Positions 3,765-64,000 of a stretch of 64,000 nt of DNA are shown here, piece after piece. Within the stretch, counting starts at the first letter, position 1, and the number at the start of each line of letters is the position of its first letter. The notes under the pieces were generated by a model that was not told the origin of the DNA, ran no database searches, and saw only the letters and a list, made by a program, of their open reading frames with translations. Made by a program: the position numbers and the translations under genes. Source of the DNA: Polytrichum commune (taxonomy: Eukaryota > Streptophyta > Polytrichopsida > Polytrichales > Polytrichaceae); the NCBI GenBank assembly GCA_950295325.1, contig OX485806.1, positions 15,064,001 to 15,128,000 on the forward strand. The letters run 5' to 3'.

Positions 3765-4150
3765 TCAAGAAAACTATAAACCATTGCAGGAGACTTGGAA
3801 GTCAAATTTTGGACAAACACAACTCACTTGTTAGATGTCAAATTAAACAAAAAATACCACCGTTGGAATTGTCTTTTAATTGTCTTTATGATCATATGTG
3901 ATTTGACCTACAAATATGAAAGTTGCAAGTAACATACTCAAGAATTTGAGCACTCTTAAGATAACTCTCAACTCATGTAGGAGACTTGGAAGGTAGATTT
4001 GGAACAAGCATAACTCACTTGTTAGATGTCAAATTCAACAAAACTATTATCTTTGGAATCGTCATTTTGGTAGCTTTCTAATGGGATGCGATTTGACCTA
4101 CAAATTCAAAACTCAAAAGCATCATTTGGAAGAATTCAAGCATTGGTGCA
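3765..4150. repeat. Two-unit tandem repeat, about 191-bp period
   Basis: The block around GGAGACTTGGAAG, ACTCACTTGTTAGATGTCAA and GATTTGACCTACAAAT occurs at about 3790-3920 and again at about 3981-4110. The copies have diverged, mainly by substitutions. No protein is evident. Confidence 0.65.
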
Positions 4151-17472: not shown

Positions 17473-19689
17473 ATGGCTGGCCATGGAAGAAGTAGTGCGT
17501 ATGTTGTATTGATAAGTTTTGCGGCTTTGTTGCTCTTAAGTGCAGCTATGGCAGTGGAGGCGGCAAGTTATATTGTAGGTGGGTCGGAGGATGAGTGGCA
17601 AGCACCGGGAACTAATAATGGATTCAACAGCACCTACTTGCAGGATTGGGCCAGGGCACAGACATTCTTCATCGGTGATATTCTCAGTAAGTGCATGAAA
17701 GCTCAGATCTCAATCTGCTCACTCTAAATCCATCTTATTCTTCTCAATCGACCAGGCCTATAGATTTGAACTCAATTGCCACTGTCCGTGTGAGTAAGTT
17801 CATCCACTTGTGTCTGCAGAATTTGTCAGCTTGGGTGGTGGGTCAATGATAGAGGTCGAGATTCAAGTTTGGTTGCAATCGGAATAAATTTGATTACATC
17901 AGCACTCAACTGATTTCATACATGTAATTGATTAAAGCTCTTCAGTAGCCAGTAACCACCATTTAGTGTTATGTAATTAGTTGAGTTTTTGGTGATCTGC
18001 AAAAGGCTTAACCCTATTGATGTTTCTGGATATGGCTGTTCACCCGTTTATCATTAGTTCACGATTCTCAACCATTTTTTTATTACATCTGTGATGAGTT
18101 GACACAGTGGTTAATCAGGTCCTGCTTGTGTGAAAGATGCAAAGTGATAAATTTTTTATTTGAATAACTTGGTCGATAATTAGTCGATTCCACGGTGATC
18201 TGCACAGACATAGTCCCAAATGATGTTTCTTGACATGCTTGTTCACCTGTTCAAATTAGTTCAGAATTCTCAACAATCTTGAAGGAACGTGCTACTAGTT
18301 GACACAGTTAATTAGGTCGAGGATGTGCAAAAATGTGCTCACATGATCTCCGGGTGCGCAATGGTAACTTGTTCGATTAATATTAGTTAATTTCTTGGTC
18401 ATTTGCACAGATGAAGCCCTACTGACGTTTCTTGGACATGGTTATTCACCTGTCCATCATTATTAGGTTCACGATTCCCAACCACTTTCAAACGAATCTG
18501 CAGCTATTTGTTCACAAAAGCTGTTAATAAGGTCAAGCTATTTTGCAAATTCGTACTCCCATGAAGCACGGATGATGCAAAGTGGTACATAACATATAAC
18601 TTCTTCGATTAAATTTTGCTCCATATTCTTTCATTTTCTTTAAATGCCATCTTCACATAAACAGTGACTGTGATTGTATGAGTATGTCTGTTGGTGATCT
18701 GCACAGACTTACATTAGTCCTATCAACATCTCTGGACACAGTTGTTCACCCACCCACCTTTAATGCACGATTCTCAGACCAATTTCAAACAAATCTGCAG
18801 CTATGAGTTGATGCATGTAATTACGTCAAGCTGGATGTGCGAATCCGTACTACTTACATGAGGTGCTGATGCCGTGAAGCCTCGATATATAACTTGCTTG
18901 ATTGATTTTCTTTCTTCTATTTGCTTCCTTTTGTAGCCCAAGGTGGCAACTATCTCTAGCACTCGCAGGGGTCACCGTCTTTAGAAAATGGTTTGGAGCT
19001 GCTAAACTATTTCTAAGAAGCAGCATTTGGGAGCTACTTTCGCATTATAAGCATACCCAAGACTATAAATTCGTAGAAGTGAAATTCAACACCTGGATGG
19101 TGACCCCTGTTTTAGAAATTAAACTTGCTTCCAATTAGTTCTCAAAATGACATTTGAAAGTGCAACCCTTTTCTAATTCCGACACAATTCGTATCAATGG
19201 ATTCCTGTCAATGCTCTCTTTCTGAATACGTTTCTCCCATTTGTCAAAGAAAATCTTCAATCCACTAAAAGTGTTAGAAGTGCCTTCAAAACAACTGATT
19301 TAATAGGGAGAGTGGCCACCCCGGGTTTTGCAGTCTTCAAGTACGACAACACGGTCCACGACGTGTGGCAAGTGAATGCCACGAGCTATGCAAACTGCGT
19401 GACAATGGATCCCATCAAGAGTTACACCTCTGGGAACGATTCTGTGCCTATCAACGCGACCACCACCTACTTCATGTGCAGCACTCCGTACCACTGTGAG
19501 GCGGGCCAGAAAATGGCCATCACCGCCACACCATCAAATGCTTCAACAACTCCACCATCTCCGTCTCCGTCTCCACCTCCACCTCCTTCAAGCGAGGCTT
19601 TCCGACATGCCAGCACTAGTACCGCGGCTGCCACCGTTTTTACAGCCCTGATTGTGCTCTTCTCCACATGGGGCTTGGGAGATGTGTGA
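17473..19689 (+). CDS. Stellacyanin-type phytocyanin, GPI-anchored (2 exons)
   Basis: Exons are 17473-17686 and 19334-19689, joined at A|GTAAGT and TTTTGCAG|TC, giving 189 aa with a phase-1 intron. Phytocyanins are small blue-copper proteins of the plant cell surface with proposed redox or cell-wall roles. Residues 1-30 form a hydrophobic signal peptide ending VEA. The plastocyanin-like domain spans about 32-136. Expected copper ligands are present: His80 (VHDV), Cys120, His125 (YHC) and Gln130 (GQK). Cys93 and Cys126 would form the family disulfide. Gln rather than Met as the fourth ligand marks the stellacyanin type. A Pro/Ser tail (145-158) suits arabinogalactan glycosylation. Residues 168-186 are hydrophobic, as in GPI-anchor signals. 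The start at 17473 was chosen because MAGHGRSS aligns with MGDQGRSS of the second gene; an in-frame Met upstream at 17341 would bury the signal peptide. The intron carries repeats and a MITE. Confidence 0.9.
17992..18900 (+). repeat. Four-unit tandem repeat in intron of first phytocyanin gene
   Basis: Units start with GTGATCTGCACAGA-like sequence at 17992, 18195, 18398 and 18693 and share GATGTTTCTGGACATG, TGTTCACC and CACGATTCTCAACCA. Two periods are 203 bp and one is 295 bp. The units are diverged and the array is wholly intronic. Confidence 0.8.
18966..19109. mobile_element. 144-bp MITE in intron of first phytocyanin gene
   Basis: The ends are CAGGGGTCACCGTC and the complement of CAGGGGTCACCATC. 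A terminal CAGGG is common in hAT-derived MITEs, but no 8-bp target duplication was found. It lies 225 bp upstream of the exon 2 acceptor. Confidence 0.6.
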
Positions 19690-56640: not shown

Positions 56641-57514
56641 TTAGCACTTATAGTAGTGGGTCCCATCAGCAATCTATAGGGTATTGTAATTTCGATTCGG
56701 CTGGGATTGAATTTCAATCAAAGTTGTAACCAATGGTGGCATGACACATGTCATGGTTTTGAGTGCTAGAGTGAGGAGGAATGAGCTGTTAAAATGAGCG
56801 GTTATGGCAGACTCTAGACATTGGTAATATGTTTGGGTCAACTTTTGGCTTCAAAAATTCATAACAATTTCCAATTAAAGGAATAAAAGTACCAAAAAAC
56901 TTGGTAGTCCTCCTAATTTCCATTTTCCTACACATGAAAATTTTGCATTGCCTTATATTTCTCGAGATTTAGCGTAGAATCTTTTAAGTAATCGGCTACA
57001 GGCCTCGGGGAGGTGACTATCGGAATTTTAGAAACCACGTGAGATTAAAAAATATATATAAGATCAAAATTAATTCGTTGAGGGTAAAAATTATAATCTA
57101 GTTAGATCTACCATAGCATTGGAAATATGTCCCTTACACAATTATATGTAAAATATGGCGGTGAATAATTCCTCCATTTTAGTAATCAGTAGAAGAAGAA
57201 AAAAAATAGGGTTATAGATATTGGATCCCCCTAAAAGTGTGTAGTAGGATCAATAAAATAATTATGGCTTTTGTGTTTAGCTTTCTTGTATTTGAATGCA
57301 ATTTTTTATTTGTGTTTTGGAGTAGGTATTTTTGCATAATTCTATTTCTTGTCACAACTTATTGTAATTCTTGTTTTGTTTTATTTATGTTTACAACTTG
57401 TCTTTGTTAGCTTGTATATTTTGCCATCTCCATGTTTATTGGTAACCCTTTAACTAGTACCCAAATGCTATTGGTTGTGTTTTGAATGGTACTTTGAATG
57501 GTTTAGGATTGGTA
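56641..57514. other. Intergenic DNA beside the LINE 3' end
   Basis: AT-rich and without recognisable features up to the LINE tail. Confidence 0.4.
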
Positions 57515-57984
57515 GATAGATAGATAGAAACTCCGGTCCCTTTTAGGGGCCGGCGTGAATAGAGTGTCCGTTCGTAATGCCAACAACCCGATGCCCACAG
57601 GACATGGGGAAGCTGGGACAAAACTACTCTCCTCTTTCGAGGATGGACACTATAGTAACCGAGAAACAGTAACCGAGAAACAAATAACATGGGCCGATTA
57701 TGGCCCACGAAGGTGCATGCCTTTTAAGGATAATTAGTGTTTTTGTAATGAGAGTGAACGCCAAGTCATGATTCCTCGGTTGGTTGTGGGAGGATGTTTG
57801 AGTTAAGACGTTCCGGGTTCGATTCCCGTTGAGTCCGTATGATCGTCTAAAATGTAACACATGACTTGGTGCGCAAGTGAATAAAAGGCATGAAATTTGT
57901 ACCAACCAACCGGCACCCGTCCCTCATTCTGAGCTGTAAGTAGATACTAGGTATTATATAAGATATTATACAAGTTTTTGGGTT

Positions 57985-60756
57985 TTATGGAGGGTCTAAG
58001 TTTTGGGGGAGCGGTTGGTGGTTTTCAAGTCTCCTCTTATGTAGGAGGATGGACATGGCATATTGTATTGCAATAGTATTAATGTTTTTAAAGGTGTTTT
58101 TGATGGTAACCATGGGTATTTTGAGATTTTCTTCTAGTATTTTCATAGATGGGATGTGGGCCGTAGCTCGGGCCCCAGCTGTGAGGACAATAAGTGGTTC
58201 GATTTTCCATCCTCTGGAAGCGATACTGTCAATCAGTGGTTTGTATTTGTTGTTTTTTGCTTCAATAGTTTCTGGGGAAAACCTGTCGTTACAATATGTG
58301 AATTCAATAAATTGTATGGTGAGGTTAGGGTCAACGTCGATGGGAGGGTCCTTTTGATATGGTAATCCTTTGACGCATAGTATGTCAGGGCGAAACCTTG
58401 CATTGCAATGACATCTTTGTGTGTTACATGCGCAGGGGAGTAGCCAATTGGGGACAGTATTTTCTTGGGGATTATTATTGAAGGTACCGGCATTCATGAG
58501 GGTAAAACATCGGGATTTTTCGGACGAGATTAGGAGCTTCCTAATTTCTCCAACTGCTTTGTTATGTCTTTTAATTCGTAGTGAGTGTATATGTTGTTGG
58601 TTACATTTCAGTAGTACATGTAGCCAAGTGTCTGGTTCGTTTGAATTGCATATGGGACACGTGATAGAGGGGTACCTCTGGTGACCGAAAAACATTTGTT
58701 TTCTAGCATTACCCATGTATGTTCCTGTACGGAATTTAATAAGGCACGATTTTTGTTTGTCTGTGATTAAGGGATTTGTCCAGAATTCGTTGGACAGTTC
58801 TTTGTCAATGTCTATATTTTCTGTCCATTTACACGTGTTGGGGGTTTGTGTGGCCATGACTGCTATATTGGTTTCCCTGTCATATTTTTTAATTTGTTTT
58901 TCTAAGAATCTTACTGGACCTTTGTCTGGGACTTCTTCCATTGAGGCCCAGACGTCCTTTTGATAATAGTATGGGGTGGCGTGGGCATGTTCGTATGGGT
59001 GTATGGCGATTCTGTGTTCTAATTCTAACCCGTCTTTTGCTAGTTTATCCGCTTTTTCATTACCGTCAATGTTGACGTGTGCTCGGACTTTGTATAGTGT
59101 GATAGGCTGTGTACGGTCTTGGAGGATTTTTACCATGGAGTTGAGTGTGGTTTGGTCTGGGTGACTATTATGGAGAGTGGGGTGTTTAATTTGTGTGTTG
59201 AGTAGATATAGTATGTTTAGACTGTCTGTGAATATAAATGCGGGTTCATTAGGGAATTGTGTATTGATGATTCTTAGTGTTTTGTGTATAGCCATCATTT
59301 CTGCACGTAGTATGTTTTGATGCCCATGGAGTCTTTTGGCGATATTGAAGCCTTTGGGGCTATAGATACCATATCCAGCTCTTTCTCTTCTCCATACTCC
59401 AGGGGCAATTTCTTTGGGTTTTATAAAGGATCCATCTGTGTAGTAGCTGAATTGGGGGTGGAATTTTAGTGGTAAGTTGGTTTGGTAGTTTGGGAGTTGT
59501 GGGGTGGGGTTTTTATTGTATAGGGGTGTGTTTGGGTAGTTTGATTGAGCCCATTTTTTACTAGGGTTAACGGTGGTGTTCGGAGGGGTGGGTGGTGCAA
59601 TTTGAGTGTGGCTTTGTAATATTTGGAGGTTATTTGCTGTGTCGTGTATTAGCTTCATCTGTTCGTAGGTACCTATGTTATTATTTTGGTGATGGATACA
59701 GAATATTTGCATGGTAGATGGTTCTTTCCTTGTAGTATTGAGTTCGGGGGGTATTGTTGGTTCTTCGTATGTGATTGTGTCAGCAGCAAAATGGGCAATG
59801 ACATGTGTGTCTGGGAATGGGCCTGTGTGTGGGTTCCAGTTTTGGTACCAGTCAGTGTCTGGGGATATAATTATAGTGATTGTGTAAGGGTCATTTTGGG
59901 CCGCCATGCGTGCCCAGTGTATGGTTTGTTGTAGGTCTGTTGAGTTGTGCGGATGTGCGTATCCAATTCCTTGCCATTTATAGTCAAACACTTTTCCTAA
60001 GGATCCAAATATTATGTCTCGTGAAAATGGTGAGTAGAATTGGGTGAATTGTGTAGGACATGTAACTGGGGATGAAAAGTATGAGTGGGTAATATTGAAT
60101 GTTGTAATTAGTAGATCCAGTATTTGAGTTGGTATTGTATATTGGGCTCTTTTGAGTGGATCGTTCTTTGGGATACGGTATTTGTATCTTTGGTATAGCC
60201 AGACAATTTCAGTTTCGAATGATTGGGTAGGTGGTTCTAGACCATGTGTGGTATTTTTTGCCAATTGGTATTGTTTCCAAAGCCATGTTAGTCTAGCTTT
60301 CGGGATGGTGATGAGATGCCTTCCATTGTCTTCGTATATGTGGACGACATCGAATTGTGTTTGGATAGTATCAGAATTTGTTTCAATGTCGTTTTCTGGG
60401 TTGCATTCACTAATAGAGATATGTGCTAGCGGAATTATTGTGGATGGTGTGACGTATCTTGTATCTCGGTGTTGTTCCGTGCTGAAGTAAGCGTTAATGA
60501 TGTTTGAAAAATGATTGTGTTGTCTTTCTGTGTAATATTGGTTAAGCAGGTTTGTGTTGTGGTTGCATATGTTGGCTTCACAGTAGGGGTATAGGTCCCT
60601 TTGGGTTCGCCATTTATTATATGTGTTGTTATTTGTTGTGGTCCATTGACACATATATGACGTAACTGTTCTTTTTATTCCATTGTGGTCGTTAGATTGT
60701 TTTTGTTTGTGATCGAGTATTTTGTGTATGGGGAATTGTCGGGGGTCTTTAAGCAT
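57985..60756 (-). CDS. LINE second ORF: methyltransferase-like, RNase H, CCHC finger, restriction-like endonuclease domain
   Basis: This is an uninterrupted 923-codon frame from ATG at 60756. Residues 220-335 resemble the methyltransferase-like module seen in some algal retroelements (YSPFSRDIIFGSLGKVF, then KWQG, HPHN, IHWARMAAQ). Residues 436-575 form RNase H with the four acidic residues Asp441 (TDGS), Glu486 (RAEM), Asp511 (TDS) and Asp570 (EKAD). A CCHC finger is Cys700, Cys703, His713, Cys718. A Cys knuckle (775, 777, 782, 784) precedes a C-terminal domain at 788-880 with RPDIL (Asp791), FIEFT (Glu818), KNNKYK (834-839) and a GAR turn (861-863), matching the pattern of R2-type restriction-like endonucleases. 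The frame is -1 relative to the reverse transcriptase and is open upstream of the ATG into that ORF, so it may be made by frameshifting or by internal initiation. Confidence 0.8.
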   Translation of the reverse strand: MLKDPRQFPIHKILDHKQKQSNDHNGIKRTVTSYMCQWTTTNNNTYNKWRTQRDLYPYCEANICNHNTNLLNQYYTERQHNHFSNIINAYFSTEQHRDTRYVTPSTIIPLAHISISECNPENDIETNSDTIQTQFDVVHIYEDNGRHLITIPKARLTWLWKQYQLAKNTTHGLEPPTQSFETEIVWLYQRYKYRIPKNDPLKRAQYTIPTQILDLLITTFNITHSYFSSPVTCPTQFTQFYSPFSRDIIFGSLGKVFDYKWQGIGYAHPHNSTDLQQTIHWARMAAQNDPYTITIIISPDTDWYQNWNPHTGPFPDTHVIAHFAADTITYEEPTIPPELNTTRKEPSTMQIFCIHHQNNNIGTYEQMKLIHDTANNLQILQSHTQIAPPTPPNTTVNPSKKWAQSNYPNTPLYNKNPTPQLPNYQTNLPLKFHPQFSYYTDGSFIKPKEIAPGVWRRERAGYGIYSPKGFNIAKRLHGHQNILRAEMMAIHKTLRIINTQFPNEPAFIFTDSLNILYLLNTQIKHPTLHNSHPDQTTLNSMVKILQDRTQPITLYKVRAHVNIDGNEKADKLAKDGLELEHRIAIHPYEHAHATPYYYQKDVWASMEEVPDKGPVRFLEKQIKKYDRETNIAVMATQTPNTCKWTENIDIDKELSNEFWTNPLITDKQKSCLIKFRTGTYMGNARKQMFFGHQRYPSITCPICNSNEPDTWLHVLLKCNQQHIHSLRIKRHNKAVGEIRKLLISSEKSRCFTLMNAGTFNNNPQENTVPNWLLPCACNTQRCHCNARFRPDILCVKGLPYQKDPPIDVDPNLTIQFIEFTYCNDRFSPETIEAKNNKYKPLIDSIASRGWKIEPLIVLTAGARATAHIPSMKILEENLKIPMVTIKNTFKNINTIAIQYAMSILLHKRRLENHQPLPQNLDPP

Positions 60757-60848
60757 GTTGTTGGGGGGAGGAGGTAGATGGAGGATGAGGGGGTTAGGGG
60801 GGTGTACGGGGGCGGTCGGTGTGTGAGGTAGGATGTTGTGATTTCTTA

Positions 60849-62858
60849 TTATATATTTGTTTTTGAGGGATCTTGGTGGGTGGTGTTGTTGGCAGGGTAG
60901 GGGGCATTGATTGCAGGGGGGTGGCAGAATAGTTCATTAGCTATGTTAAGTGCGCTTTGGATAAGTTTAGAAGGAGTGGAGTGGTAGATTTTGAATTCGT
61001 CCTTGTTCATCAGAGTGGTACCATTAGGCAAGGTAATTTGGTCTAGTGTGGTTATGTTATGTATAAGTAATTTGTGTAGTAGTTTAAGTGAGGTGTTGGG
61101 GTTTAGGCCATGTAGCATTTGTGCTTCTTGCATCCATGCTGTTTCAAGTGAGGATGGGGTTAGTAGAAAGTTATTTATTGTGCTTTTTAAATGGACTCCG
61201 GCTTTATGTTTTAGCAGAAACAGTGTTCTAGTGATGGGTGATCTAACACAGTGGTGGTATTTAATGCGAGTGATTTCTTGAGAGCCCCCATGTGTGGCGA
61301 GTATGAATTGTACTAGACCGGTATATATTCTCCCAATTCTGCCTTTGTCATTGAGGGCATTTTGTAATTGTTCTCCAATGCACCTTAGATAGGCATTTTG
61401 TAATGAAAATGCTTCAATTCCAAATAGGTTGTGGGGGAGTTGCGTGGCAATATTAGATGTGCATTTAGGTATTCCACATATTATTTTATGGAGTGCGATG
61501 ATTTTTTTGTCTAGTTTTTTTATGGCTGGTATGGAGTATGGTACTGCATAAAAACTATATGCTATTCCAGCACGTATGACTGTGTCTGCCATGTTGATTT
61601 TTTGTTTCATAGTAGCTGGGCAAGCTACGAGGGCTTGACATTGTTTGATTACTTTAGTTGTGGTGGTATTTATTTGTGTTTTCCATTTGAGTGATGGTGC
61701 AAGATTTATTCCTAAGTATGTATAGGGTTCATGTTGGTTTAGGACTGGTATAGGTTGGTTTCTATAATTTATGTTAGTGGATTGGATTAGGGCTTTGAAG
61801 GTTGTGGGGTTAAGTTTAGATTTGTTTGGACATCCAGTCACTGCACATTTTGGTATACCTAGGTCCATTCCTGCCCATTCACAGAATTTGTCTAGTTTGT
61901 TTAATTGTGTTTGTAATGCTTCTAGTTTGTTGGCGATTGCTGCAAGATCATCTGCATATGCTGCTGATGAGATTTTCACTCTGGACGTACCGAAAGTATA
62001 TCCATTATTTTCTTGTTGCAGCCATCTAAGTAGGGGTTCCAAAAATATGAGAAATAGATATGGGCTAAGGGTATCGCCTTGTATTGTACCTCTTTGGATG
62101 TGGATTGGTAGAGTTTTTCCGAAGTGTTTTCCGGTAAATATGGTTGATGATTGTGAGTATATGTTTCCTATGAGGTTTATGGAGTCATTGGGATAACCCA
62201 GGTCTTTCATTATGGCTAATAGTCTGGCGTGGTCAATGGAGCCAAAGGCGTTTTTGAAGTCAATGTAAAGAATGTATATATCTTGGTTTGTGAGTCTGGC
62301 GTCTTCAAGCGCTGCAATTAGTATTTGGATTTGTCTGGAGGTGCTTCTTTCTGCTCTGAATCCTTCTTGACTATCGTGTAGTATTTGGTATTTTTCTCCG
62401 TATGCTGATAGGATAGAGGTTAATGTGCTTGTGTATAGTTTATATATAGTGTTAGCTAGTGCAATAGGTCTGTGATTTGTTAGTTGTGATGGGTTACCTT
62501 TTTTATATAGTAAAACTGTTAGACTAGTTTTCCATGATGCTGGGATTTGTTTTTGTTTATAGCAGTATTTAAAGAATAGAAACAATATTTTGTGAAAGCG
62601 TGGAGGCATATTTTTTAGAATTGAGTTGGGGATTTTGTCTGGACCTGGGACTTTATTATTACTTAGGTTTTTAAGACAGAAGTCGTATGTTTCTTGATCA
62701 AAGTATGTGTGCAAGGGAATTTGGGGTTCTCCTCGTATGTCGATTGTGTACCCATTTAAGTCGTGCCAAGGGTATTGCCTTACTCCACATGTACAGTGAA
62801 TTAGATGTGTATTTTGATGGTGACATGTGGGGACTGTTGAGCGGTTACTGATGGATTG
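60849..62858 (-). CDS. LINE reverse transcriptase (C-terminal part of first ORF)
   Basis: The open frame runs from just after a TAA at 62859-62861 to the stop at 60849. A Cys/His cluster (CHH...HCTC) lies near 62800-62825. The canonical non-LTR reverse transcriptase blocks follow. Counted from codon 62714, these are VPGPDKIPNSIL (22-33), NHRPIAL (80-86), SQEGFRAERST (115-125), LYIDFKNAFGSIDH (149-162) with Asp152, QGDTLSP (212-218), and YADD (253-256) with both catalytic Asp. The frame upstream of the TAA is the same one that encodes the endonuclease, so the two were a single ORF. The last 85 nt or so overlap an open -1 frame leading into the RNase H ORF. The catalytic core looks intact. Confidence 0.85.
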   Translation of the reverse strand, partial: QSISNRSTVPTCHHQNTHLIHCTCGVRQYPWHDLNGYTIDIRGEPQIPLHTYFDQETYDFCLKNLSNNKVPGPDKIPNSILKNMPPRFHKILFLFFKYCYKQKQIPASWKTSLTVLLYKKGNPSQLTNHRPIALANTIYKLYTSTLTSILSAYGEKYQILHDSQEGFRAERSTSRQIQILIAALEDARLTNQDIYILYIDFKNAFGSIDHARLLAIMKDLGYPNDSINLIGNIYSQSSTIFTGKHFGKTLPIHIQRGTIQGDTLSPYLFLIFLEPLLRWLQQENNGYTFGTSRVKISSAAYADDLAAIANKLEALQTQLNKLDKFCEWAGMDLGIPKCAVTGCPNKSKLNPTTFKALIQSTNINYRNQPIPVLNQHEPYTYLGINLAPSLKWKTQINTTTTKVIKQCQALVACPATMKQKINMADTVIRAGIAYSFYAVPYSIPAIKKLDKKIIALHKIICGIPKCTSNIATQLPHNLFGIEAFSLQNAYLRCIGEQLQNALNDKGRIGRIYTGLVQFILATHGGSQEITRIKYHHCVRSPITRTLFLLKHKAGVHLKSTINNFLLTPSSLETAWMQEAQMLHGLNPNTSLKLLHKLLIHNITTLDQITLPNGTTLMNKDEFKIYHSTPSKLIQSALNIANELFCHPPAINAPYPANNTTHQDPSKTNI
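60915..60921 (-). promoter_or_regulatory. Candidate -1 ribosomal frameshift heptamer in the LINE
   Basis: On the minus strand the reverse transcriptase codons read CAC CCC CCT, giving C CCC CCT, which fits the X XXY YYZ rule in the zero frame. The -1 frame is closed by TGA shortly upstream and stays open from here through the whole RNase H ORF. The reverse transcriptase frame stops at 60849. The position is apt, but poly-C heptamers are not a well-established eukaryotic class and no downstream pseudoknot was tested. Confidence 0.35.
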
Positions 62859-64000
62859 TTATGCGTAAATCTCTAAAGCAATGTCTTCAGGGTTGGTTAA
62901 TATGTTGTTTTGTCTATCAATGATGGAGTCAAGAGGTGAGGTTTCAGTGTTCTTGAAGACTTTCCGATTTATTTTCTTGGGGCTTTTTTCATACATTTGA
63001 CGGTATTTTGATACGGCTTTTAGGATGCAGTCTCTGGTGTATTTTGTGGTAATTTTTCTAGCTTCTTTATTTGCCGTTTTTGCGATAATTGCTATGGTGT
63101 CAATCCATTCGACAGGAGATGTTGTTGTAGTAGGTGGGTGCGGAATGTTGACGTGTTGGTGGTTTCGGATATCGTTTAGGATGGGGTGTACTTGCCAGCT
63201 TGGGTCATTTTATACAATGTAAATGGTTTTCCTGATGAGGTGATATGTGTTGAGGTGTCTTTTCCATTCTCTAGCTAGTTTGCGTGGTAAAAAACCACCT
63301 TGTTGTGCTGTTCTGTTTGTGAGGTTGGGTAGAGGGTCTGCTTTGCAGGTTTTTTCAATTGTTTTTGAGATTTTGTTTATAATGTATTCCAATGATGTGC
63401 AGGCATTTTGCCATTGATCAGGTGTTAAGTGTTGGTGGTCTTCTAATAGTGTGGTAAGTTCTTTAAGTTGGGTGGAGTTTTCTTCGAAGAATGTTATGTT
63501 AAATTTTTCTAGGTTTTCCGGTGGTATCGGGTTCAGTATCCTAGTTGGTGTGGTGTGTGTAGAGGGCGGAGGTCTAGCTATAAGTGTGTTGTGTGGGATG
63601 TGTAATGTGACTGGATAGTGATCTGAATTTAGATTCATGTTTGTGTTTGTAGTGGAGGTAAATTTGCTGTTGTCAAGGGAGTGAATGTAGAAACCATCTA
63701 TTAGGCTTGTGGATGTGTAGTTGTAGCCACCTTGTCTGGAGATACTAGTGTTGGTAGTGATATATTCTAAGTCGAGAGATGTGGTAAAATTTTTCCATTG
63801 GAAGTCCTCTTCTTGTGGGGGGGTAGTAGTGTTGTTATTTTGTCTACCTCTAAGTGCAATATCTCTGTTAAAGTCACCGCACAGTGTGTATATGTGATTG
63901 GGGTGTGTAGTGATTTGTTTAGTGATTTCATTCTTAAGGTGTGGGATAAGACATGTGTCTTCTAGGTGCGTAGGCATATACATGTGTATAATTAGCCAAG
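62859..64000 (-). pseudogene. LINE APE-type endonuclease region, broken by TAA codons, N-terminus outside window
   Basis: The frame is open at the right edge (WLIIHMYMPTH) and reads through GDFN (36-39 counted from the Met at 63983), LIDGFYI with Asp96, and NSDHYPV with Ser120-Asp121-His122, the conserved motifs of the APE/exonuclease III fold used for target nicking by LINEs. A TAA at 63210-63212 ends this frame after IYIV. A further 116 codons then read on in the same frame to a second TAA at 62859-62861, and the reverse transcriptase follows in frame. Only these two stops interrupt an otherwise continuous ORF, so this copy is probably inactive but young. The N-terminal catalytic Asn and Glu lie outside the window. 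Confidence 0.8.

Follow-up and report, generated by a model that had tools for sequence, protein, structure and literature searches.

The window is the 64,000-nucleotide stretch C4:15064001-15128000 of assembly G000, a land-plant genome of 407.8 Mb in 64 contigs. It holds the 3' half of a long interspersed nuclear element (LINE), and all features of this LINE are on the minus strand. The second open reading frame (ORF2) is composed of a long N-terminal stretch, a 2A-like core, an apurinic/apyrimidinic endonuclease (APE), a reverse transcriptase (RT), a PCIF1-like domain, RNase H, a CCHC zinc finger, and a predicted restriction-like endonuclease (REL) of the R2 type, in that order. The window copy is apparently full-length and mutationally dead. 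The locus most likely carries a dead copy of a Dualen-like, dual-endonuclease LINE from a land plant, probably a moss, whose family has been recently active; the mechanism described below is one that we infer. An initial annotation of this DNA had named the motifs GDFN, LID, and SDH (APE), YADD (RT), RNase H, CCHC, and RPD...K..KY, and Pfam searches and alignments recover all of them on the minus strand (Table 1).

Table 1. Positions of the LINE features within the window
Feature	Position	Strand	Basis
13-bp target-site duplication, 3' copy	57502..57514	-	5' copy at window-equivalent 71640-71652; both are TACCAATCCTAAA
3'-terminal stretch common to the LINE and a tRNA-type SINE	57513..57659	-	90% identical to the SINE copy in L043
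(TATC)n / (ATCT)n tail, no poly-A	57515..57526	-	3'-end comparison
3' hairpin just ahead of the tail	57533..57553	-	folding
C-terminal ORF2 open frame	57985..60933	-	923-aa product, ATG at 60756
R2-type REL region (RHN, RPD, E, K..KY), approximate borders	58036..58593	-	alignment and profile comparison
Second Cys cluster CxCx4CxC between RHN and PD	58405..58434	-	invariant in 9/9 rows
CCHC zinc-finger motif	58603..58659	-	alignment and profile comparison
RNase H domain	59026..59448	-	PF00075 E 8.1e-13; aa 437-577 of the 57985-60756 product
PCIF1-like domain	59914..60246	-	PF12237 44.3 bits, cut-off 31.1
One-base frame break between two ORF2 frames, approximate place	60915	-	copy comparison
RT domain (RVT_1, YADD)	61701..62498	-	Pfam RVT_1 E 4.5e-30
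In-frame stop, window copy	62859..62861	-	copy comparison
In-frame stop, window copy	63210..63212	-	copy comparison
APE C-terminal part (GDFN, LIDGFY, SDHYPV), approximate borders	63600..64000	-	motifs; PF14529 23.3 bits, cut-off 27.4

Extent, copies, and decay of the element

The 3' end of the LINE is position 57515. Reading of the contig past 64000, together with comparison of copies, places the other end at window-equivalent 71639 and gives a length of ~14.1 kb. The initial annotation had bounded the feature at 64000 and suggested that it might extend further; the element does continue, for 7.6 kb, and 64000 is not its end. ORF1 is a frame of 617 aa in the window copy and 747 aa in other copies, and the parts scanned (465 and 571 aa) match no Pfam family. 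ORF2 overlaps ORF1 by ~22-25 nt, including the stop, in the -1 frame at a border outside the window.

The C-terminal ORF2 product is encoded at 49 genome places with 92-100% identity (all scored, of 7,153 first-look candidates) and is therefore not a chance frame. In three of the 49 scored places, ORF2 is an uninterrupted frame of 2,625 aa. Three whole copies, on C5, C2, and C1, are 12.0-12.7 kb long, each with its own 12-bp repeats, and are mutually 99% identical over 10.7-12.0 kb. Against the C5 and C2 copies, the window copy has 88% identity over 7.9 kb. Among 15 further loci compared with C5, three (L021, L022, and L030) are 89-92% identical, and the other 12 show 58-66% identity in the longest match, with collinear pieces. 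Two more distant relatives, L032 and L033, are 42-43% identical and possess the APE, RT, PCIF1-like domain, RNase H, CCHC, and REL in unchanged order. The family, which has three 99%-identical open copies, is abundant and recently active in this land-plant genome.

In the window copy, the RT and its YADD motif lie in the frame 60849-62858, and the APE motifs GDFN, LID, and SDH lie in 63210-63998. This arrangement had been taken initially for an unusual split into two frames. The split is decay, because two in-frame stops and one frame break interrupt ORF2 in this copy; the three open copies lack all of these breaks. Genuine separate frames joined by programmed frameshifting are a highly improbable explanation. 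The -1 overlap of ORF1 and ORF2 speaks for frameshifting, but it is located at the ORF1/ORF2 border (L001 ~3884-3905), and the two copies examined there have no early ORF2 ATG and no slip site that would open ORF2. Frameshifting within ORF2 is refuted by the open copies.

A chimera, or a nested insertion of two elements that mimics one ORF, would account for the three separate frames of the window copy. The same C-terminal product, however, recurs at the 49 places, and in three of these it lies within one open frame that holds all parts. The 42-43% relatives keep the same order, and target-site duplications bracket the entire unit in 4/4 full copies. The single open frames refute this explanation, to which we give next to no credence.

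Two copies on C1, at C1:70158272-70161040(-) and C1:70187761-70190529(+), score the same and face in opposite directions, with ~27 kb between them; C1:70150198 holds a third copy. The pair looks like a recent inverted duplication.

Reverse transcriptase and two nucleases

The RT of the window copy finds its best PDB matches in R2 chains (9nl2, E 4.6e-31, 111 bits), versus 66 bits for human L1. An RT tree of 20 rows includes 8 rows of the family, two group II RTs, three R2 sequences, human L1, and six L1s of the same genome. The 8 family rows form one branch with support of 100/100. R2 joins this branch, to the exclusion of L1 and the group II RTs, at a moderate support of 89/90. L1 is the only APE clade in the tree, and the RT falls outside it; an RT placed firmly in a clade without restriction-like nucleases would have spoken against the initial annotation. 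It is thus supported that the RT is not of the L1 type and is nearer to R2, while kinship with the Dualen clade would be a likeness of architecture only.

The APE runs on upstream of the window edge to window-equivalent ~64,370, where it contains the motifs TWN and QETKL. TWN, QETKL, GDFN, LIDGFY, and SDHYPV are invariant in 4/4 aligned sequences, save for the L of LID (H in L032). The domain is called an APE because of these motifs and because PF14529 reaches 32.3 bits in L033, above the cut-off of 27.4.

The C-terminal domain (CTD) of ORF2 carries the CCHC and REL motifs. Alignment A1, compared first, is made up of the window and 9 of the 15 divergent loci fetched. Left out were L018 and L025 (frame break in the CTD), L019 (stop in the CTD), L022 and L030 (near L021), and L031 (partial). 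Alignment A5, the one of widest spread, is A1 without L024, L027, and L028 and with L032 and L033 added, giving 9 CTD rows whose identity to the window falls as low as 44%. C-x2-C...H-x4-C, RHN, PD, E, and K..KY are invariant in 9/9 rows of A5.

Compared by hhalign with the CCHC/REL region of R2 (three PDB chains), A5 gives Prob 94.7, E 5.9e-8, and a score of 57.2. Column-shuffled versions of A5 have a mean score of 13.7 and a maximum of 24.9, and 0/200 reach the real score. The controls (reversed alignment, RT, and PCIF1/RNase H part) each have a Prob under 1; control alignment A2, two of whose rows extend into the CTD, has an E of 0.0035. Residues 780-890 of the 57985-60756 product, where a nuclease of the R2/Dualen kind had been suspected, lie in the region that this profile comparison matches to R2. 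The REL is established by homology as a predicted nuclease, and the suggestion that one ORF2 unites both nuclease types holds. The second Cys cluster, CxCx4CxC, is not present in the three aligned R2 sequences. The only Pfam match among the CTD rows, to DUF4177 (2/10 rows, best E 0.16), was judged to be chance.

Selection was measured as the ratio of non-synonymous to synonymous substitution (dN/dS) between C5 and L021. The values are 0.063 for the RT, 0.091 for the PCIF1-like domain, 0.062 for RNase H, and 0.098 for the CTD, and the linkers have 0.27 in one and 0.076 in another. The enzymatic parts, including the REL and the PCIF1-like domain, have thus been maintained by selection. For the APE, comparable only with L033, dN/dS is 0.30 at near-saturated synonymous sites.

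An ordinary APE-type LINE of the L1 or I group, with the APE as sole cutter and the C-terminal CCHC and RPD...K..KY as chance or vestige, is unlikely. The ~12-bp duplications at non-specific sites resemble APE-type insertion and favor such a LINE, since R2-type elements are generally known to target specific sites. Against it stand the profile homology of the CTD to R2, the motif residues that stay invariant down to 44% identity, and the CTD dN/dS. The RT also groups with R2 and not L1, and the tail is not poly-A.

The PCIF1-like domain and the 2A-like peptide

The extra modules mentioned without names in the initial annotation exist; these are the PCIF1-like domain, the 2A-like peptide, and the second Cys cluster. 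PF12237, the family of PCIF1 (CAPAM), is above its cut-off in 150/150 loci scored (of 697 candidates), and L032 and L033, at 26.1 and 27.4 bits, are under it. Compared with two PDB PCIF1 chains, the domain has SSP-TC/ASPLNC and FGS-G in common with them; the E of this comparison is 0.11, and the Pfam score is the support. The neighboring RNase H is also found in the C5 copy (PF00075 E 7.3e-13).

NPPF is the catalytic motif of PCIF1. At its position, the window copy reads HPHN (59944-59955). The same position is HPH, HPP, or HPY, followed by N or T, in 20/20 additional loci, which were hand-picked from the 150 listed, mostly for longer profile coverage. L032 has HPKD, L033 has FPTD, and no row has N/D-P-P-F/Y/W. 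Every locus examined thus differs from PCIF1 in its catalytic motif. Because NPPF is lacking, the domain is most simply seen as a derived, non-methylating form that may bind RNA or the cap.

An active methyltransferase, acting on cap adenosine (m6Am) or another adenine and marking the RNA of the element as self, is the quite improbable alternative. It would be in keeping with the PF12237 score, with the SSP-TC and FGS-G motifs as in PCIF1, and with purifying selection. The replacement of NPPF in the 20 additional loci, in L032, and in L033 argues against it. A derived domain that binds RNA remains the preferred reading.

The 2A (StopGo) core, LLKCGDIESNPGP, follows the ORF2 N-terminal stretch, and the open frame ahead of it is 925 aa in the window copy and 277 aa in C5. 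It reads DIESNPGP in the window copy and DIEPNPGP in C5; both fit the consensus (D/G/C/N)(V/I)ExNPGP given in the part of the survey available (PMC12846837). The pattern DIExNPGP occurs at 267 genome sites, and its reversed control occurs at 0. For 37 of the 68 listed PCIF1-like loci on C1 and C2, a same-strand 2A-like site lies 4.0-6.3 kb upstream; the 37 sites are distinct, and the opposite-strand and shifted controls give 0. This fraction is a lower bound, drawn from 100 of the 267 2A sites and 150 of the 697 PCIF1-like loci.

Two further observations concern the N-terminal part of ORF2. There, the window copy contains a coding 18-bp minisatellite of 18.3 copies with YHTQTK-type repeats (L001 3342-3671). 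L032 (C2:36080000-36088500) has two complete 2A-like cores, DIELNPGP and DIEINPGP, 267 aa apart, as if its 2A module had been duplicated.

Insertion, the partner SINE, and related elements

Insertion sites were compared in 24 insertions, made up of 4 full copies and 20 3' ends from the first 21 plus-strand C1 matches. A clear target-site duplication of 12.2±0.9 bp is found in 17 of these; for the window copy, which has two seed matches, the longer one was used. The first base of the duplication is T in 17/17, and the base before it is G in 9, A in 5, T in 3, and C in 0. The 17 target sites are otherwise unrelated. In every one of the 16 copies whose seed is unique, the first base or bases of the duplication can equally be read as tail. 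This overlap fits priming by pairing of the tail with the nicked target.

The 3' hairpin is GCCGGCCCCTAAAAGGGACCGG, and its core variants include CCTCGAAAGAGG and GGTCCCTAAACGGGACC. Six versions were folded (5 from LINEs and 1 from a SINE), with z from -2.1 to -4.4; all are better than the shuffle mean, and 0 to 6 of 200 shuffles are as good. On the strand opposite to the LINE, inside its 3' untranslated region (57740-57830), a B-box-like GGTTCGATTCC lies at 57816. It looks as if this antisense tRNA-like piece may belong to the LINE 3' untranslated region. Rfam on window 57000-64000 and ARAGORN on the window found nothing.

The 3'-end pattern has 1,213 genome occurrences with up to 2 mismatches, and its control has 0. 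Among the 20 3' ends fetched (L042-L061, on C1), 14 share just the last 144-151 bp with the LINE, a fraction that slightly overstates the share of short interspersed nuclear elements (SINEs), as one of the first 21 matches was dropped as part of a listed LINE. Duplications bound 11 of these 14 and delimit an element of 365-380 bp (~370 bp). The 11 copies are 93% alike, as an average per column, and end in the LINE hairpin and (ATCT)n tail. All six SINEs checked have TGGCTTGGTGG, followed 44-52 bp on by GGTTCTAYTCC, which we take to be tRNA-type A and B boxes. Rfam and ARAGORN found nothing in the 11 SINE loci. The LINE would mobilize this SINE. The pair parallels the algal case, since SINEs (SINEX) with RandI tails are listed for green algae in the available part of PMC3747384. 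Both SINEX and the present SINE are short and bear the 3' end of this kind of LINE; the present SINE differs in its ~370 bp, its land-plant host, its common stretch of 144-151 bp, and its (ATCT)n tail.

During translation, the 2A-like peptide would free the enzymatic part of ORF2 from the N-terminal part. The RT would then take as template its own RNA or, in trans, that of the SINE, recognizing either by its 3' hairpin and tail. Nicking beside the target T would expose a 3'-A, and pairing of this base with the final U of the tail could prime reverse transcription. A second nick ~12 bp off would yield the duplication, and RNase H would remove the template. The two nucleases may divide the two nicks between them, which would agree with the narrow range of duplication lengths. 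The domain derived from PCIF1 would bind RNA, perhaps the capped 5' end, without methylating it. A stronger version is put forward tentatively, as a doubtful possibility: both nucleases would act in each insertion, one per strand at a fixed spacing of ~12 bp, the PCIF1-derived domain would grip the capped 5' RNA end so that both RNA ends are held, and the 2A-like peptide would free the machine.

R2 elements are site specific and lack an APE, an RNase H, a PCIF1-like domain, and a second ORF. R2 (PDB 8gh6, 8ibw, 9dou, 9nl2, and 9nl3) is the closest solved relative of the present RT and possesses the same CCHC-RHN-PD-D/E-K..KY C-terminus. The present family differs from it in its APE motifs and its insertions at unrelated sites with ~12-bp duplications. 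L1 elements have an APE and target-site duplications, no REL, and mostly a poly-A tail. The six L1s of the same genome resemble the family in an RT within ORF2 and, by general knowledge of L1, in the APE and duplications; their RTs are 21-27% identical to it and lie on the opposite side of the 89/90 branch. The original description of Dualen is said to have included a cysteine protease-like domain, and Pfam scans of three ORF2 proteins of the present family found no protease family.

Dualen is described, in the parts of the texts available here, as a LINE group with both nuclease types and RNase H (PMC4640811). APE and REL occur within one Dualen/RandI element (PMC4640811, PMC3636483). These LINEs are comparatively obscure and present in relatives of Chlamydomonas (PMC8226300). 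Their hosts are green algae (PMC8226300, PMC3747384), and the repeat label LINE/Dualen is also used in cryptophytes (PMC12747079). For land plants, the accessible text of a 2022 review has L1 and RTE alone (PMC9033089).

The family resembles Dualen/RandI in an APE with an RT, a CCHC and R2-type REL, and RNase H. It also has a short tandem-repeat tail with no poly-A and SINEs that bear the tail of the LINE, as RandI does (PMC3747384). It differs in its tail unit, ATCT versus ATT or CTATTT, and in its land-plant host. The Dualen/RandI descriptions, as far as they were available, mention no PCIF1-like domain, 2A-like peptide, or extra Cys cluster, and these modules set the family apart from partial descriptions only. 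Among the matches listed in open-licence PMC texts, available in part, no Dualen-type LINE in a land plant and no PCIF1 domain in a LINE were found. No relatives were found in IMG/VR and GTDB contigs. Going by its sequences, this is a real and recently active dual-endonuclease LINE family, a variant of a Dualen-type architecture known mainly from algae.

Several observations weigh against a dual-endonuclease, 2A-bearing LINE as proposed. For the APE, PF14529 in the window piece is under its cut-off (Table 1), PF03372 in L032 is just under (23.7 vs 24.5), and the intact C5 ORF2 gives no APE family at E up to 1. For the REL, the narrower A1 pairs the same motifs but reaches only Prob 23 (E 8.8e-4), an A1 profile has no hmmsearch match among PDB chains, and AlphaFold of the window CTD alone, without an alignment, is unusable (pLDDT, its per-residue confidence score, 33.5). 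The RT tree has long branches, with possible false joins flagged and moderate support, and is built without Dualen, CRE, R1, I, CR1, or RTE references. Under the strict seed, 7/24 insertions lack a duplication, among them L057, in which a separate SINE comparison found one. Among the matches listed, 31/68 PCIF1-like loci have no 2A-like site, and the L033 core, DIHPNPGP, is outside the 2A consensus. The roles of each nuclease, the 2A-like peptide, and the PCIF1-like domain are ones that we infer.

An abundant and recently active land-plant family lends itself to the question of why two nucleases are retained in a LINE. This question underlies the switch from restriction-like to APE nucleases proposed for LINE evolution in the available part of PMC4640811. 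The family also provides a 2A-like peptide that occurs naturally in a mobile element of plants, and a conserved retrotransposon domain of cap-methyltransferase origin; the accessible part of a 2026 survey (PMC12846837) found no 2A use by plant viruses. With its defined 3' hairpin, the LINE/SINE pair opens the copying step to testing.

The initial placement of the element in a land plant is supported by other genes of the assembly. LEAFY DNA-binding domains are encoded at three loci (L062, L063, and L064), and LEAFY is, to our knowledge, known from streptophytes only. Two of them have KMRDYVH and one has KMRHYVH, presumably the moss form and the form of flowering plants, respectively. Nearly all of the assembly is contained in seven contigs of 42-78 Mb, and a moss is the host suggested. 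Within the window, 19177-19689 is a phytocyanin (plastocyanin-like) exon (PF02298 E 1.6e-15) with a proline-rich C-terminus. Two PCIF1-like loci, C3:874345-874734 and C24:11558-11947, have the same scores and frames, one on a chromosome and one on a small contig; C24 is possibly a redundant contig of the assembly.

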